Source: Neomegalonema perideroedes DSM 15528
GTDB lineage: Bacteria; Pseudomonadota; Alphaproteobacteria; Rhodobacterales; Rhodobacteraceae
Reading direction: 5' to 3'
DNA length: 64,000 bases
NCBI RefSeq assembly: GCF_000374145.1
Contig: NZ_KB893654.1
Span: 584,995-648,994 of the forward strand
This document shows positions 47,505 through 55,462 of this stretch, one piece after another. The position numbers and the translations under genes were made by a program. Position 1 is the first letter of the stretch. The number at the start of each line of letters is the position of its first letter. Below the pieces are notes generated by a model, which had not been told where the DNA came from, searched no databases, and worked only from the letters and a program-made list of their open reading frames with translations.

Positions 47505-47654
47505 TCAGGCGTCGGGAGGCGTTTCAGGGGCCGGAGCCGGAACGGGCGTCAAACGCCCCTCCGCTTCGTCCTCCATCAGCTCGAACCACATGGCGTTGAG
47601 CACCGCGAAGGCCGCCGCCAGAGGAAGGCCGAGCATCCAAGCGAAATACCACAT
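47505..47654 (-). CDS. cydX: Cytochrome bd oxidase small subunit CydX
   Basis: A 49-aa single-pass protein starting MWYFAWMLGLPLAAA, which matches the CydX/YbgT signature (MWYFAWILG). CydX stabilises the CydAB haem site. The membrane helix spans ~3-22; the acidic FELMEDEAEG follows as in the family, then a Pro/Ala-rich tail (TPVPAPAPETPPDA) not usual in short CydX. It starts 67 bp after cydB, across the palindromic element, with AGGAGAACC before the ATG. Confidence 0.9.
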   Translation of the reverse strand: MWYFAWMLGLPLAAAFAVLNAMWFELMEDEAEGRLTPVPAPAPETPPDA

Positions 47655-47673: not shown

Positions 47674-47723
47674 GGTCGCGCAATTCATCCGAAAACCGGT
47701 TCCCGCTTTTCGGATTGCGCTCA
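47674..47723 (-). repeat. Stop-codon-linked palindromic element, copy 2
   Basis: Read on the minus strand it begins with the cydB stop TGA, then GCGCAATCCGAAAAG, a 10-nt loop (CGGGAACCGG), TTTTCGGAT and AATTGCGCGACC. Outside the loop it differs from copy 1 (33396-33445) at one base, and both sit in the same orientation relative to the upstream gene. Here it lies between cydB and cydX, where a hairpin could lower downstream expression. Confidence 0.8.
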
Positions 47724-48878
47724 GTAAGCGTGGGTGTCGCCCTTGGCGATGGCCGCCACGTCCACCTTGCCGCGCAGGATCCGATAGACCCAAGCCGTGT
47801 AGAGCAGGATCAGCGGCATGAAGATCAGCGTCGAGCCCAGCATCACGAAGAGCGTGAAATGGCTGGAGGAGGCGTCCCAGACCGTCAGGCCCGAGCGCGG
47901 ATCCAGCGCCGAGGGCAGCAGGAAGGGGAAGATCGAGACGCCGACCGTCGCGACGATTCCCGTGATCCCGAGTCCGCTGGCCAGCAGCGCCCGACGCGGC
48001 AGATTCCGCCGCAGCGCCCAGGCCGCTCCCAGCATGCCGAGAATCCCGAGGACCGGCGCGAGAATCGCCGGGGGGAAGGCGGCGTAATTGCTCAGCCAGC
48101 CGCCTTGGACCAGCTCGACGCTCTTGCGCAGCGGATTGGAGGCCGCCGCCGGATCGACGACGCTGACGATCTGATGGCCGTTGAGGAAGGCCACCCAGAC
48201 GCCGCCGACCACGAAGAGCGCCGCCGCCGCCAGAGCCGCCTTGGAGCCGATGGAGCGCGCGCGCTCCGCCACGGGGCCCTCGAGCTTGAAGGCCAGCCAG
48301 CCCGCGCCATGGGCCAGCAGCATCGCCAGAGAGACCAGACCGCAAAGCAGTCCGAAAGGATGGAGCAGCCGGAAGAAGCTGGTCCATTTGAAGGTCACGC
48401 CCAGCGAGGCGGGGTCATAGGAGAAAAGCGAGCCCATCAGCGCCGAACTGGTCGCCGCGCCGAAGAGGATCGCCGCCAGACCGCCCGACAGGCAGAGGAC
48501 GACGTCCCAGCGCGCGCGCCATTTCGGCTCCTCGCGCTTGGAGCGGAATTTGAAGGCCACCGGCCGCAGGATGAAGGTCACCAGCAGCAGGAACATCGCC
48601 AGATAAAAGCCCGAGAAGGCGGCGGCGTAGATCAGCGGCCAGGCGGCGAAGATCGCGCCGCCGCCGAGGATCAGCCAGACCTGATTGCCTTCCCAGACCG
48701 GACCGATGGAGTTGATCACCGAACGGCGTTCGAGGTCGGTCTTCGCCACGAAGGGCAAGAGCGCCTGAGCGCCGAGGTCGAAGCCGTCCATCACCGCGAA
48801 GCCGACCAGCAGCACGCCGAGCAGCAGCCACCAGATCACGCGCAGGACGTCGTAGGAGATGAGTTCATGAAGGACCAT
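47721..48878 (-). CDS. cydB: Cytochrome bd ubiquinol oxidase subunit II
   Basis: A 385-aa, eight- to nine-helix membrane subunit of cytochrome bd, the high-affinity quinol oxidase. DGFDLGAQALLPFVAKTDLERR and GPVWEGNQVWLILGGGAIFAAWP are family hallmarks. It starts 6 bp after cydA. The length matches the E. coli subunit (379 aa). Confidence 0.97.
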   Translation of the reverse strand: MVLHELISYDVLRVIWWLLLGVLLVGFAVMDGFDLGAQALLPFVAKTDLERRSVINSIGPVWEGNQVWLILGGGAIFAAWPLIYAAAFSGFYLAMFLLLVTFILRPVAFKFRSKREEPKWRARWDVVLCLSGGLAAILFGAATSSALMGSLFSYDPASLGVTFKWTSFFRLLHPFGLLCGLVSLAMLLAHGAGWLAFKLEGPVAERARSIGSKAALAAAALFVVGGVWVAFLNGHQIVSVVDPAAASNPLRKSVELVQGGWLSNYAAFPPAILAPVLGILGMLGAAWALRRNLPRRALLASGLGITGIVATVGVSIFPFLLPSALDPRSGLTVWDASSSHFTLFVMLGSTLIFMPLILLYTAWVYRILRGKVDVAAIAKGDTHAY

Positions 48879-48884
48879 GTCGGC

Positions 48885-50495
48885 TCACTCCGCAGGGGTG
48901 AAAGCGGGAGCGGCGCCCGGAGCGGCGTCGCGGAGAGGTTCGGGGCCATGCCCGGGTCCGCCGTCGAGCGGATGCTGCGGGCCTTTGCGGATGGCCTTGA
49001 GCATCAGCTTGATCTCGACGAGGAAGAGCACGGTGTAGATCAGCGTGAAGCCGAGCAGGGTGGTCAGCACCGTGGCCGCGCCCAGATTGGAGACCGCCAC
49101 CGCCGTCGGCAGCACGCCCTCGATGATCCAGGGCTGACGCCCCACCTCGGCGACGATCCAACCCATCTCCACCGCGATCCAGGGCAGAGGAATCGCCAGA
49201 ACCGCGAGCTGAAGCGGCCAGCGCCGTTTCTCCAGCCGGCGCCGCGCCGAGAGCCAGAAGAACCCGCCCGTCAGCAGGATCAGGAACAGCCCGATCCCCA
49301 CCATGATGCGGAAGGCCCAAAAGAGCGTCGGCACATGGGGCACGGTGTCCCAGGCGGCTTTCGTGATCTGCTCGGGGGTCGCCTGAGTCGGATCGTCCAC
49401 ATAGCGCTTGAGCAGCAGGCCGTAGCCCAGCCAAGGGCCGTTCTCCTCGAAGGCTTCGCGGGCGGCGGGCGGAATCGCCGCGCTGGAGCCCGCCGCGCGG
49501 ATCTCCTGAAGCGCGCCATAGGCGAGGGCGCCCTTGCGGATATGGCCCTCCGCGTTCTGGACCAGATCCGCGATGCCGGGGATCTCGGTGGTCAGCGAAC
49601 GCGTGCCGATGAGGCCCATCACATAGGGGATGTGGATCGCGTAATGGGTCTCCCGGGCTTCGGGATCGGGGAAGCCGACCAGCGTGAAGGCCGCGGGCGC
49701 CGGTTCGGTCTCCCACATGGCTTCGATGGCCGCGAGCTTCATCTTCTGATGCTCGCCCGAGAGATAGCCGCTTTCATCGCCCAGAACGACCACGGAGAGC
49801 GCCGAGCAAAGGCCGAAGCTCGCCGCGATGGTCATGGAGCGCTTGGCGAGGGCGGGCGAGCGCCCCTTGAGCAGATACCAGGCCGAGACGCCCAGCACGA
49901 AGACCGAAGCCGTGACGTAGCCCGCCGAAACCGTATGGACGAATTTCGCCTGAGCCACGGGATTCATGAGGACGGCGAAGAAATCGACCATCTCCATGCG
50001 CATGGTCTCGGGGTTGAACTCCGAGCCGACGGGGAACTGCATCCAGCCGTTGGCGATCAGAATCCAGAGCGCCGAGAAATTCGTGCCGATGGCCATCAGC
50101 CAGGTCACGGCGAGATGCCCCACCCGCGAAAGCTTGTCCCATCCGAAGAAGAACAGCCCGACGAAGGTGGCTTCGAGGAAGAAGGCCATGAGCCCTTCAA
50201 GCGCCAGAGGCGCGCCGAAGATGTCGCCGACGTAATGGCTGTAATAGCTCCAGTTCATGCCGAACTGGAACTCCATCACGATTCCGGTGGCCACGCCCAT
50301 GGCGAAGTTGATGCCGAAGAGCGTGCCCCAAAAGACCACCATGCGTCGCCAGACGTCGCGGCCGGTCATCACATAGACGGTCTCCATGACCGCCAGCAGG
50401 ATCGACAAGCCGAGAGTCAAAGGCACGAAAAGAAAATGATACAACGCCGTCGCGGCGAATTGCAGGCGCGAGAGCGCCACTACGTCCAGCTCCAT
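48885..50495 (-). CDS. cydA: Cytochrome bd ubiquinol oxidase subunit I
   Basis: A 536-aa haem-bearing subunit. The haem b595/d axial His lies in ALYHFLFVPL (His20), the GRQPW segment is present as VGRQPWII (~430), and the quinol loop between is of the longer, E. coli-like type. ATG 50495 (MELDVVALSR) is chosen over an upstream Gly/Ser-rich extension. The C-terminus ends in a Pro/Ala-rich tail. A GGAGGCGGC site precedes it; the 90-bp gap from cydC may contain an internal promoter. Confidence 0.97.
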   Translation of the reverse strand: MELDVVALSRLQFAATALYHFLFVPLTLGLSILLAVMETVYVMTGRDVWRRMVVFWGTLFGINFAMGVATGIVMEFQFGMNWSYYSHYVGDIFGAPLALEGLMAFFLEATFVGLFFFGWDKLSRVGHLAVTWLMAIGTNFSALWILIANGWMQFPVGSEFNPETMRMEMVDFFAVLMNPVAQAKFVHTVSAGYVTASVFVLGVSAWYLLKGRSPALAKRSMTIAASFGLCSALSVVVLGDESGYLSGEHQKMKLAAIEAMWETEPAPAAFTLVGFPDPEARETHYAIHIPYVMGLIGTRSLTTEIPGIADLVQNAEGHIRKGALAYGALQEIRAAGSSAAIPPAAREAFEENGPWLGYGLLLKRYVDDPTQATPEQITKAAWDTVPHVPTLFWAFRIMVGIGLFLILLTGGFFWLSARRRLEKRRWPLQLAVLAIPLPWIAVEMGWIVAEVGRQPWIIEGVLPTAVAVSNLGAATVLTTLLGFTLIYTVLFLVEIKLMLKAIRKGPQHPLDGGPGHGPEPLRDAAPGAAPAFTPAE

Positions 50496-50585
50496 TGAGC
50501 CGCCTCCTGTCCCTGAGGAGCCTCTTTCGGAGCCTCGCCCGACCAAGGTCGCGCGACGCTCCGGGTCTTAAGTTCGGCGGACGCT

Positions 50586-52283
50586 TCAGTCGCCGCGCAG
50601 CCCCGAGAGCGCCGCCGCGAAAGCGGCCTCGCCCCGACGCAGATCCGCGACCGGCGCGCCCGCCGACATCACGATGAGCCGGTCCGCCATTTCGGCCTCC
50701 CGGCGCAGATGCGTGGCGACGACCAGCGCGCGCCCCGCCAGACGCGCCGAAAGGCGCGTCAGAATCTCCCGGCCCATGGGGCCGTCCAAAGCCTCGGTGG
50801 GCTCGTCGAGCAGCCAGAGCGGGGCCTCGCGCAGCAGCAGCCGCGCCAGAGCCAGACGCCGCGCCTGTCCGCCCGAAAGCCCGAGCCCGCCTTCGCCAAG
50901 GCGCGTCTCCAGCCCATCGGGCAGAGCCGCCAGAAGCTCGCCGAGCCCCGCCGCCTCCAGAGCCGCGCGCATCTCCGCCTCGGAGGCTTCAGGCGCTCCG
51001 AGCCGCAGAGCCTCGCGGAGGGTCTCTTGAAAGAGATCCGCCCTTTGGGTCAGCCGCGCCGCCGCAAGCCGCTCGACTTCGCCTGTCTCCGGCGCAAGCT
51101 CGCCCGCCATCAGCGACAAGAGCGTGGATTTCCCCGCGCCGCTCGCCCCGATCAGCGCCACGCGCTCGCCTTGGCGAATGGTCAGATCCAGAGGCTTGAG
51201 CGTCGGGCGCGTCGCCCCCGGCGGCCGCGCCGAAGCGCCCGTCAGCCGCAGGGCGATTCCCTCGGGCGGAGCCTTGGCGTGAGCCTCCGGCGCGGGCTCG
51301 GCCAGACGCGGCCCGATGCGCCGCGCGGCGCCCGCCATGCGGCCCAGCTCCGCCGCGCCGCGCCTCAGGAGTCCGAAGGGCTCCACGGCGCCGATCGCCG
51401 CCAAGAGAGCCAAAGCCGCCCCCGGCGCGCCGATGGTCCCGCGCTCGGCGAGGGCCGCCGTCGCGAGCAGCAGGCCCGCGAGCATGAGCGCCGTCAGCAG
51501 CCCCAGCCCGAGGCCCATGCGGCGCTCAATGCGGTTGAGCTCGCCGTCCGCCGCCGAGAGCCGATCCTGCGCCGCGAGGATCGAGTCCTCCTGAGCCTCC
51601 AGCCGCCCGGCCATGAGCAGATCGGCGCGGCCTTTGGAGAGATCCGCGATGCGCGCCCGCAAAGCCCCCTGAGCCGCCGCCTTGCGCCGCCCCCAAGGCT
51701 CGGCGGCGCGGGCGCTGCGGAGCGTCAGAGCGAATCCGACTCCCGCGAGAAGCCCAGCCGCCGCCAGTCCGAGCCGCCAGTCGAGGAAGGCCAGCATGAC
51801 CCCCAGCAGGACCGCCGCCGCCAGAGCCGCCACGCCGGGCGCGATCACCCGGGCGTGCAGCCCCTCCAGAGCCTCGACGTCGGCGCCGATCTGAAACAAG
51901 GCGCCCGAAGGCCGCTTCATCAGCGCTCCCGCCGCCGCAGGGGCGGCGTGGCTGCGGAAGACTCGCCCCCGCAGATCCGCGAGGACGCCGAGAGTCGCGT
52001 CATGCAAGGTGAGCCGCTCGCCATAGCGCGAGGCCGCCCGCAGGAAGGTCAGCAGCCTTATGCCGCCTCCGGGCGCGAAGACGTCGAAGGCCCAAGCCGT
52101 CGCGAGGCTCAATCCGGCGATGGCCGTCGCGGCGACGAACCAGCCCGACAACGCCAGAAGCCCCAGCCCGAAGAGCGCCGTCAGAGCGGCCAGCAGAGCG
52201 CCGATCCGCAGCGTGCCTCCGGCCTGCTCGCGAAAGAGCCTCAGCACGGGGCGCAGAGAAGCGAGCGAAGCGGGGCGGCTCAT
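50586..52283 (-). CDS. cydC: Thiol reductant ABC exporter subunit CydC
   Basis: A 565-aa half-transporter: six membrane helices (~25-320) and an ATPase with Walker A GASGAGKSTLL (~385), LSGGQARRLALARL and Walker B LWLLDEP. CydDC exports glutathione and cysteine (or haem-related reductant) needed to assemble cytochrome bd. Its ATG overlaps the cydD stop (ATGA), giving coupled synthesis of the heterodimer. Confidence 0.95.
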   Translation of the reverse strand: MSRPASLASLRPVLRLFREQAGGTLRIGALLAALTALFGLGLLALSGWFVAATAIAGLSLATAWAFDVFAPGGGIRLLTFLRAASRYGERLTLHDATLGVLADLRGRVFRSHAAPAAAGALMKRPSGALFQIGADVEALEGLHARVIAPGVAALAAAVLLGVMLAFLDWRLGLAAAGLLAGVGFALTLRSARAAEPWGRRKAAAQGALRARIADLSKGRADLLMAGRLEAQEDSILAAQDRLSAADGELNRIERRMGLGLGLLTALMLAGLLLATAALAERGTIGAPGAALALLAAIGAVEPFGLLRRGAAELGRMAGAARRIGPRLAEPAPEAHAKAPPEGIALRLTGASARPPGATRPTLKPLDLTIRQGERVALIGASGAGKSTLLSLMAGELAPETGEVERLAAARLTQRADLFQETLREALRLGAPEASEAEMRAALEAAGLGELLAALPDGLETRLGEGGLGLSGGQARRLALARLLLREAPLWLLDEPTEALDGPMGREILTRLSARLAGRALVVATHLRREAEMADRLIVMSAGAPVADLRRGEAAFAAALSGLRGD

Positions 52284-53917
52284 GCGGCGGCCTCCTTATC
52301 GGCGGCGGGAGGCTCCAGCCGGATCACGCGGTCCATGCGCCGCGCCACGGCGGGATCATGGGTGGCGATGAGCAGCGTCCGCCCCTCGGCGAGCTTGAGC
52401 AGACCTTCGAGGATCTCGGCGGCGGTCTCGGAATCGAGATGCGCGGTCGGTTCGTCGGCGAGGATCAGCCGCGCCTCGGGCCGCGCCTTCAGCCGCGCCA
52501 GAGCCAGACGATGGGCCTCGCCGCCGGAGAGCCCTAACCCGCCTTCGCCGAGCGGCGCCGCCCCATGCAGAGCCGCCGCGCGCTCCAGACGGGCGAAGCT
52601 CAGGGCCTCGCGCAGAGCCTCCGGATTCAGCTCCCGCCCGAGCGCGACATTGGCCGCGAGGCTCCCGGCGAAAATATGGGGCGTCTGGCCGAACCAGGCG
52701 ATTTGCGGACGCAGGCCCTTGGGCGCGCCGGGAAACTCCAGAACCCCCGCCTGAGGCTCGGCCAGACCGCCGATCAGCGCCAGCAGCGTCGATTTCCCCG
52801 AGCCGCTCGGCCCCATCAGCGCGATTCGCTCGCCCGGCGCGGCCTCCAGCCCATAGCCCGCGAAGGCCGGCGCGAAATCCAGAGCCTCGATCCGCAAGCC
52901 CGGCGCCCGCAGCAAAGCGGGCGCGAAGGGAATCGGCGAGATCCGCGGGCCGGAATCGTCAAGGCGCGAAAGGGCCTTGCGGGCGGCTTCCCCGGCGGCG
53001 CGGTCATGCCAGACCGCCGAGATCTCGCGCAGAGGCTCGAAGAAGGCCGGGGCGAGCATCAGCACGAAAAGCCCCTCCGCGAGGGTCAGCTTCTCGCCCC
53101 AGACGCCCCATGAGAATTCGCCGAGCAGATGGAATCCGACATAGACCGCCGCCAGAGCCACCCCCAGCGCCGAAAAGAACTCCAGCACCGCCGAGGAAAG
53201 AAAGGCGATCCGCAGAACCGCCATGGCGCGGGTCTTGAGGTCTTGGGCTTCGGCCCGCACGCGGGAAGTCACGCTCTCGACGGCGCCGAGGTCGCGGATG
53301 GTCGCCAAGCCCCGCAGACGATCCAGCAGATAGCCGTTCATCTCGCCCAAGCGCGCCATATGGGCCTCGCTGACCGCCTGAGCCCGCCAGCCGACCAAAG
53401 CCATGAAGACCGGAATCAGCGGCGCCGCCATGGCCAGAGCCAAAGCCGCCGCCCATGAGAACCAGAGCACGCAGGCGAAGATCGCCAGAGGCAGGATCAT
53501 GGATTTGAACCGCGCGGGCCGCCAGCGCGAGAGATAGGGAATCAGCGCCTCGGCTTGCTCGGCGAGCAGGCTCGCGGCCAGCCCGGAGGAGGCCTGCGTT
53601 TTATCTAAGGGCGAGCGCCGCCCCAGAGCCGCGACCGCCTTTTCACGCAGATCCCGCGCCTCGGCCCGCGCGGCGCCATGGGCCATCCCCGCCCCGAGAT
53701 CCTCCAGCAGCGCCTTGAGCGCTCCGAAGAGCAGGGCCGCTCCCGCCGGAGCCCAAACCGCCGCAACGCCTTCGCCCGCCGCGATCCGCCCGATTCCCCA
53801 AGCCAAAGCTCCCGCCTGAGGAATCCAGAGCAGGGCCGCGAGACTCAGCAGCAGCGAGGCGCGGGTCAGCGGATCGCGGAGATCGAAGCGGGAACCGGGG
53901 GAGCGGCGGGCGCGCAT
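52280..53917 (-). CDS. cydD: Thiol reductant ABC exporter subunit CydD
   Basis: A 545-aa ABC half-transporter with membrane domain (~20-310, including EFFSALGVALAAVYVGF) and ATPase domain with GPSGSGKSTLL (~360), LSGGEAHRLALARL and LILADEPTAHLD. The ATG at 53917 lies 1 bp after the regulator's stop and is chosen because the upstream open frame is antisense-free but unrelated Arg/Ser-rich sequence inside the regulator gene. First structural gene of the cyd operon. Confidence 0.95.
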   Translation of the reverse strand: MRARRSPGSRFDLRDPLTRASLLLSLAALLWIPQAGALAWGIGRIAAGEGVAAVWAPAGAALLFGALKALLEDLGAGMAHGAARAEARDLREKAVAALGRRSPLDKTQASSGLAASLLAEQAEALIPYLSRWRPARFKSMILPLAIFACVLWFSWAAALALAMAAPLIPVFMALVGWRAQAVSEAHMARLGEMNGYLLDRLRGLATIRDLGAVESVTSRVRAEAQDLKTRAMAVLRIAFLSSAVLEFFSALGVALAAVYVGFHLLGEFSWGVWGEKLTLAEGLFVLMLAPAFFEPLREISAVWHDRAAGEAARKALSRLDDSGPRISPIPFAPALLRAPGLRIEALDFAPAFAGYGLEAAPGERIALMGPSGSGKSTLLALIGGLAEPQAGVLEFPGAPKGLRPQIAWFGQTPHIFAGSLAANVALGRELNPEALREALSFARLERAAALHGAAPLGEGGLGLSGGEAHRLALARLKARPEARLILADEPTAHLDSETAAEILEGLLKLAEGRTLLIATHDPAVARRMDRVIRLEPPAADKEAAA

Positions 53918-53918
53918 C

Positions 53919-54530
53919 TCAGCCTCCGCCTTCTTCGGTTTTGGCTTCAGCCTTGGAGACGTCTTGCAGCGGCTCCTTGCGCGGGCGTCCGAAGCGCGTG
54001 ATGCGGTCCTTGACCTCCAGAAAGCGCGTGACCTTGGCCCCGAGCGACAAAAGCGCCACGAGCCTCTCCGTCTCCAGCTTTTTGACGTCGTCATACCAGC
54101 TGGTGAGGCTTTCGATCATGTCGTGCATCTCGGCGAGCCGCGCCTGAGCATGGCGGTCGGCGTCGTCGCGGGGGGTCTGGAGCAGCAATTCGCGCAGCAC
54201 CGAGAGCGTCGGATCGATCTCGCGCTTTTTGCGCTCCTCCGCGAGGACGCGCAGAATCAGCCAGACGTCGTCCGGGGTGGTGTAGTAATCGCGCCGGTCG
54301 TCGGGGATATGCCGCAGCAGCACGAGATTCCACGCCTGAAGCTCGCGCAGGCTCATCGAGACGTTGGAGCGCGAGATCCCGAGGCCCTCGGCGATCTCCT
54401 CGGCGCAAAGCGGCTCCGGCGAGACGTAAAGCAGGGCGTAGATCTGCCCCACCGTGCGGTTGACGCCCCAGCGGCCGCCCATTTCGCCGAAATGCAGCAC
54501 GAAGGATTGCACGAGAGGAGGCAGATTCAT
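53919..54530 (-). CDS. GbsR/MarR-family transcriptional regulator of the cyd operon
   Basis: A 203-aa GbsR-type regulator with a winged helix-turn-helix (~15-75: EPLCAEEIAEGLGISRSNVSMSLREL, then DDRRDYYTT as the wing) and a long coiled-coil C-terminus (~95-190). It lies directly before cydD and shares its transcript, implying control of cytochrome bd. ATG at 54530 (MNLPPLVQSF) is the family-like start; another in-frame ATG at 54560 sits against the palindromes and would lack a ribosome site. The C-terminus is charged (EAKTEEGGG). Confidence 0.88.
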   Translation of the reverse strand: MNLPPLVQSFVLHFGEMGGRWGVNRTVGQIYALLYVSPEPLCAEEIAEGLGISRSNVSMSLRELQAWNLVLLRHIPDDRRDYYTTPDDVWLILRVLAEERKKREIDPTLSVLRELLLQTPRDDADRHAQARLAEMHDMIESLTSWYDDVKKLETERLVALLSLGAKVTRFLEVKDRITRFGRPRKEPLQDVSKAEAKTEEGGG

Positions 54531-54560
54531 GGGAGTCGGCTCGCCTGAAAAACGTCTCAT

Positions 54561-54585
54561 CTGAAATTTCAGAAGTTTCTGAAAT
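54561..54585. promoter_or_regulatory. Nested palindromic operator upstream of the cyd regulator
   Basis: CTGAAATTTCAG (54561-54572) is a perfect 12-bp palindrome, and ATTTCAGAA-GT-TTCTGAAAT (54566-54585) is a perfect 20-bp one sharing its right half. Together they give three CTGAAA/TTTCAG half-sites. The position, 31-55 bp upstream of the regulator start, suits autoregulation of the whole cyd operon. Confidence 0.65.
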
Positions 54586-54658
54586 CACGATAGAGAACGA
54601 GGCGCGCAGGGCCAAGGCGGCGTTGCGCCGCAGCAAACGAAAGCTCAGGAGCGGATCT

Positions 54659-55462
54659 TCAGCCTCTGGCGGCGGCGCGGGATTCGGGCTTGGCGCCGTT
54701 CTGAGGCTCGCCCCGGGCTTCGCTGGGAGAGGCGGGCCGGGACTGGGGCCGGGATTGGGGCTGAGATTCCGGCCGGGATTCGGGCGGAAGGTCGGGGAAA
54801 TGCGGGCTCTTGCGCAATTGGTCCCAAGCCCAGAGGACTTCGCGCAATTTGGCCTCTTCGCCGCGGTCGCCGCCGTTGAGGTCGGGATGCAGCGATTTGA
54901 CCAGCTCCTTATAGCGGGCCCGGATCTCCGGCCGCGAGACCTCGGGCCGCAGATTCAGCACGCGCAAGGCGCGGATCTCCGTCGAGGGCAGGGCGTTGCG
55001 CCGCGTCGCGGCCTTGGCGCCCGCGCCCGGCGATTTCGTCGCCTTTTTGCCGAGCGCCTCCAGCGGATCGCGGAAGCCCATGCGCCGCCAAGCCTCGCCG
55101 TCGGCGTGGCCGTAATGATTGGCGTAGCGCTTGGGATCTTCGGTGGTGCGCCATGTGGGGCGGTCCCAGAAGGCGGCGGCGCGCTGAGCGGCCTCGATCT
55201 CCTCGGGCGAGCGGCCTTTATAATAATCCCATGAGGCGTTGTAGCGCCGGACATGTTCGAGGCAGAACCAATGGAAATCCTCGGCCTGCGGCGCGATGGG
55301 CGCCCGATAGCGGCCTTTCTCGGCGCAGCCCGGCCAGGCGCAGCGCTGCGCCAGGGCGGCGGAGATTCCGCCGTCCAGCAGGCGCCGACGATTGGAGGCC
55401 GCTTCCCGGCGCCTCTTGTCTGCGGCGACGCTGATGTCGAAATCGAACGGCGACCGGCGCAC
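54659..55462 (-). CDS. DnaJ-domain protein with N-terminal Cys/His region
   Basis: A 267-aa cytoplasmic protein with an N-terminal region carrying CAWPGCAEKG and FHWFCLEHVRRYN (a possible zinc site, ~42-72), a YHYG-like centre, and a C-terminal J domain (~165-220) with LHPDLNGGDRG containing the HPD that activates DnaK. The end is a Pro/Ser/Gln/Arg-rich tail. It starts at GTG 55462 after GGAGGAGAGG. This J-domain architecture is common in alphaproteobacteria; the client is unknown. Confidence 0.85.
   Translation of the reverse strand: MRRSPFDFDISVAADKRRREAASNRRRLLDGGISAALAQRCAWPGCAEKGRYRAPIAPQAEDFHWFCLEHVRRYNASWDYYKGRSPEEIEAAQRAAAFWDRPTWRTTEDPKRYANHYGHADGEAWRRMGFRDPLEALGKKATKSPGAGAKAATRRNALPSTEIRALRVLNLRPEVSRPEIRARYKELVKSLHPDLNGGDRGEEAKLREVLWAWDQLRKSPHFPDLPPESRPESQPQSRPQSRPASPSEARGEPQNGAKPESRAAARG

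Follow-up and report, generated by a model that had tools for sequence, protein, structure and literature searches.

A conserved operator of the cytochrome bd regulator upstream of cydE-cydDCABX in Neomegalonema perideroedes, with a probable secondary third unit

Cytochrome bd-linked repressors and the Neomegalonema locus

Cytochrome bd is a back-up respiratory oxidase. The closest described counterpart of the locus considered here is that of Alishewanella sp. WH16-1, in which CydE, a GbsR-type repressor co-transcribed with the cytochrome bd genes, leaves a DNase footprint over the sequence TATTTCAGAAATTTCTGAAAGTTCA, represses a reporter and is released in vitro by sulfate (PMC6096048). CioR of Chromobacterium violaceum is likewise a repressor of the GbsR/MarR family, encoded at the head of a cytochrome bd operon; it directly represses its own cioRAB operon (PMC11837568), and its DNA binding in vitro is abolished by zinc and iron, not by cyanide or H2O2, with a metal-induced release that is not reversed by DTT and a suggested binding of metal by histidine. 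That operon differs from the present one in its oxidase with a short Q-loop and in the absence of cydDC, and the operator sequence of CioR was not found in the text consulted. An earlier survey of the GbsR family counts 34 proteins linked to cyd genes (PMC6207618). The Bacillus proteins GbsR, OpcR and OpuAR belong to the same branch of the MarR superfamily and are local repressors too, but their targets are osmoprotectant genes, and the osmolyte-type ligands to which they respond are held in an aromatic cage, a feature absent from CydE (PMC6207618). Among the papers searched, the motif string described below occurs only in PMC6096048, and nothing was found joining GbsR with cydDCAB, or MarR with cydDC in Rhizobium.

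The window analysed here, 64,000 nucleotides of the Neomegalonema perideroedes DSM 15528 genome, carries a cytochrome bd module on its minus strand. The leading gene, cydE (53919-54530), encodes a GbsR/MarR winged-helix repressor of 203 aa whose conserved start reads MNLPPLVQSF, as assigned from Pfam, homologue alignment and fold. Behind it lie cydD (52280-54094; TIGR02857 above cut-off), given as the longest ORF, which overlaps the 3' end of cydE and whose true start is probably further in; cydC (50586-52283), whose best matches, PRK11160 and TIGR02868, both fall under their curated cut-offs; cydA (48885-50546, longest ORF), the sole cydA of the genome; cydB (47721-48878; PF02322); and, at the end of the operon, a cydX-like small membrane protein of 49 aa (47505-47654; PF08173). 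The cydE promoter is immediately preceded by a DnaJ-domain ORF in the same orientation (54659-55462, minus).

The regulator matches Pfam MarR_2 (1.6e-9), and an NCBIfam GbsR-like profile (CudC) below its cut-off. Sequence and fold comparisons agree on its closest structural neighbours, MJ223 (PDB 1ku9; E 4e-13 by sequence), Bcav_2135 (5jbr) and 4nb5, which differ from CydE in having no known cyd link, and none of which is a DNA complex. A structure model, reliable in its DNA-binding half, places the recognition helix at residues 54-66 and the wing at about 71-84. Homologues 49-53% identical to the protein, with the same motif, occur in other classes of the phylum.

The Alishewanella footprint comprises the same 18-bp core as the site upstream of this gene (17 of 18 positions identical to the window copy), and includes the beginning of its third unit as well. 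With a footprint of this site on record from Alishewanella, we regard the Neomegalonema copy as a well-conserved example of a known switch and not as a new kind. The two loci are nonetheless distinct: the Alishewanella operon consists of cydE-cydAB, lacks cydDC and contains a further site of dissimilar sequence (GGGATGCGCATATGCAAAT), whereas in Neomegalonema cydE leads cydDCABX and the operator carries one substitution at its centre and a perfect TTTCAG third unit.

Geometry, position and conservation of the operator

The initial annotation had described two perfect nested palindromes, of 12 and 20 bp, sharing a half-site, and had held the symmetry of the longer one unlikely to be fortuitous. 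The shorter is indeed exact (CTGAAATTTCAG, 54561-54572), and even grows to a perfect 14-bp palindrome (TCTGAAATTTCAGA, 54560-54573), with TTTCAG as the half-site common to it and to the second inverted repeat at 54566-54585. The latter consists of perfect 9-bp arms about an asymmetric GT centre (ATTTCAGAA-GT-TTCTGAAAT), and is not a perfect 20-bp palindrome since the central GT is not self-complementary. The judgement on chance was sound: among inverted repeats in the 64-kb window of 68% GC whose arms reach 9 bp or more, it is the sole AT-rich one (at least 60% A+T), and 40 dinucleotide-Markov nulls contained a mean of 0.00 such repeats.

Read on the gene (minus) strand, the arrangement is TTTCAGAAA-CTTCTGAAA-TTTCAG, that is, an 18-bp operator followed in a 9-bp register by a third unit. 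The primary operator (units 1 and 2, TTTCAGAAACTTCTGAAA, 54567-54584, minus) is identified from its conservation and from the published footprint (PMC6096048). It is identical at 17 of 18 positions to the orthologue consensus TTTCAGAAATTTCTGAAA, itself a perfect 18-mer palindrome; a single substitution at the centre, where gene-strand T10 is replaced by C, renders the dyad of the window copy imperfect. In L033, a close relative (Neomegalonema sp.), the central dyad of the core is also broken, at the opposite base (GT, against AC in the window, on the gene strand), while the arms and the perfect third unit are intact in both. The sequence TTTTTCAGG at 54545-54553 was considered as a fourth half-site but discounted, being missing from L033, the closest relative.

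The site was placed by the initial annotation immediately before the regulator gene. It does lie upstream, but not at that distance: the longest regulator ORF starts at 54560, touching the palindrome, whereas homologues align from Met11, so that the real start is 54530 and the operator core therefore stands 36 bp upstream of the gene. On the gene strand, TTGGCC, 17 bp, TATCGT and GA precede TTTCAGAAACTTCTGAAATTTCAGATG. In the orthologues, columns just upstream of the core conserve TATAGT and TTG at promoter spacing, and from these conserved columns we predict a -10 element TATCGT (54587-54592, minus; consensus TATAGT), ending 2 bp before the operator, and a -35 element TTGGCC (54610-54615, minus; 17-bp spacer), of which TTG is conserved across loci. 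The operator would thus begin about 2 bp behind the -10 and cover the expected transcription start.

Orthologous loci bear out the proposal that the site is the operator of the adjacent regulator. In a set of 80 loci from one genome scan, the 18-bp core TTTCAGWAATTWCTGAAA is present upstream of the regulator in all 80, with no mismatch in 60, one in 18, two in one and four in one, and a cyd gene follows the regulator at every locus (cydD in 69, cydA in 11), as cydDCABX does in the window. Among the 66 sites left after dereplication, columns T1-T3, C4, T11 and G15-A18 never vary and most others of the core scarcely do, with A5 and T14 each in 65 of 66. Of 299 genomes sampled from the phylum, 15 contain the exact core and none a reversed-pattern control. 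The exact core is confined to genomes with the regulator: 15 of the 43 genomes with a CydE homologue carry it, as against none of the 256 without (Fisher 2e-14). All but one of these 15 sites abut cydE. A three-mismatch pattern search of the 3.4-Mb Neomegalonema genome yielded no second site within two mismatches, and the operator, like cydA, is thus single there.

The strongest evidence for function comes from two genomes in which the regulator gene and the cyd promoter are separated. In G202 only 8 bp separate the motif from cydD, whereas cydE is convergent and some 6.5 kb off; in G284, where the order is cydA-cydB-cydE, a copy with one mismatch stands about 70 bp ahead of cydA and none was found before cydE. 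Since these genomes carry the motif at cyd and not at cydE, it follows the cyd promoter. Motif placement in a further genome, G312, whose contig ends behind cydE, was left out.

The third unit and the sister clade

Three half-sites had been proposed initially. What survives is a degenerate but conserved third unit; a perfect one is special to this lineage, exact TTTCAG (54561-54566, minus, columns 19-24, forming with unit 2 the 14-bp palindrome) being found in 2 of 66 sites, those of the window and L033. Over the 66 sites, columns 19-24 match TTTCAG at a mean of 3.55 of 6 positions, the best of the flanking offsets (z=4.9, with sequence kinship left in), and 35 sites have at least 4 matches, compared with about 3% of background windows. 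The signal resides in G24 (53/66) and C22 (48/66), columns 20 and 23 being unconstrained.

Unit 3 might accordingly be a functional half-site, units 2 and 3 forming a second overlapping palindrome for another CydE dimer or an alternative register, with cooperative or graded repression. The enrichment just described speaks for such an arrangement, as do the Alishewanella footprint, which reaches into the third unit (GTTCA), and L033, which keeps a perfect TTTCAG though its core centre differs. The orienting A/T that is all but fixed in units 1 and 2 is, however, free in unit 3 (A30, T18, G9, C9), column 21 favours A (35/66) over T (29/66), the exact unit is rare, and two dimers offset by 9 bp would overlap. 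Part of the signal may also reflect a longer primary site, since the flanks show palindromic extension, columns -1 and 20 co-varying in 37 cases against 23.3 by shuffling (kinship of the sequences again not removed). On balance we consider a functional half-site rather unlikely, though not implausible, and two bound dimers possible; we conclude from these columns that unit 3 is probably a real but secondary contact.

A related site occurs with a sister GbsR/MarR clade, which is set apart by a 100/100-supported branch (17 rows on its side); at L011 and L014, the two loci inspected for neighbours, the gene adjoins a fatty acid desaturase. The loci of this clade (L009-L019, L151-L157) have upstream sites of the form TTTCTGTNATNACAGAAA, in which the half-site is that of CydE but for an exchange of the central A/T. 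Residue 59 of the recognition helix is Met in 99 of 102 CydE proteins and Thr or Asn in 13 of 14 others, the fourteenth, L097, being itself a CydE, as its identity and its linkage to cyd show, with a degenerate site that the scoring had placed in the other group. This pairing suggests that residue 59 and the central A/T may constitute a simple specificity code, which would explain the fixed A5 and T14 of CydE operators. In an extended form, which we offer as speculative and rather improbable, the operator would be composed of tandem 9-bp quasi-palindromic units TTTCWGAAA in two overlapping registers, with the central W as a specificity switch: Met59 of CydE would read the A-first order TTTCAG...CTGAAA, and Thr/Asn59 of the sister proteins the T-first order TTTCTG...CAGAAA. 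The third-unit register shift (CTGAAATTTCAG) has the sister-type order, and so could permit graded repression, or cross-talk in genomes that hold both CydE and a sister protein.

Probable repression of the cyd module and its wider meaning

The site is most readily understood as the operator of CydE, a GbsR-type MarR-family repressor governing cydE-cydDCABX, a reading to which we assign a probability of roughly 0.93. Its dissimilarity to the second Alishewanella site and the imperfect dyad of the window copy count against it. By analogy with relatives, in which CydE binding, footprint and repression were established, a CydE dimer would read the 18-bp inverted repeat TTTCAGAAA-NTTCTGAAA just behind the -10, over the predicted transcription start, and when bound would sterically block RNA polymerase and repress cydE-cydDCABX. 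TTTCAG, 9 bp further on, would lengthen the stretch of DNA in contact, probably by way of the wing or the flank, or else of a second, weaker binding register. Autoregulation of the cyd module, reported in relatives (PMC6096048, PMC11837568), is likely here too.

Derepression would come about through an effector that releases CydE from its operator. The redox control put forward at the outset is not favoured, at least by way of cysteine: the conserved reactive cysteine of thiol-redox MarR proteins (e.g. the OhrR type) is lacking, the single cysteine, Cys42, being C in 68 and N in 30 of 102 orthologues. Metal or another ligand would be a more plausible effector. Two histidines are conserved, His13 in 102/102 and His74 in 101/102 orthologues.

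Expression of cytochrome bd is often regulated by oxygen, which lends some appeal to a global regulator (FNR/FixK or ArcA-like), and not the adjacent GbsR protein, as the reader of the site, as do TTGATCnnGATCAA-like boxes near the -35 in some Acetobacteraceae homologues; but the motif is confined to genomes with a CydE homologue, the sister GbsR clade has a sister motif, the CydE footprint covers the motif, and no FNR/FixK box (up to 2 mismatches) was found near the site in the window, so that we judge this very improbable. The Acetobacteraceae in question are Roseomonas-type (L080, L087, L088, L099, L107), their FNR/FixK boxes lying in the -35 region some 30 bp upstream of the CydE core, and this placement suggests that oxygen-dependent activation may there be combined with CydE repression. 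A hairpin in RNA or DNA, acting as an attenuator, terminator or 5' UTR element, to which perfect 9-bp arms in a presumed 5' region might point, can be set aside as scarcely credible, given AT-rich arms with a 0-2 nt spacer too tight for a stable RNA loop, a left arm that would stay partly untranscribed with only 2 bp between the -10 and the site, and the protein footprint known for the same sequence.

The motif is thus genuine and was rightly read as an operator of the cyd regulator, once its geometry is corrected. What had been one published footprint becomes a conserved and predictive operator in several classes of Pseudomonadota, usable for finding CydE-controlled cytochrome bd promoters even where the regulator gene lies elsewhere. 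CydE and its sister clade, moreover, make a clean pair for learning how two specificities within the MarR family may be kept apart by a single base pair and a single residue of the helix.
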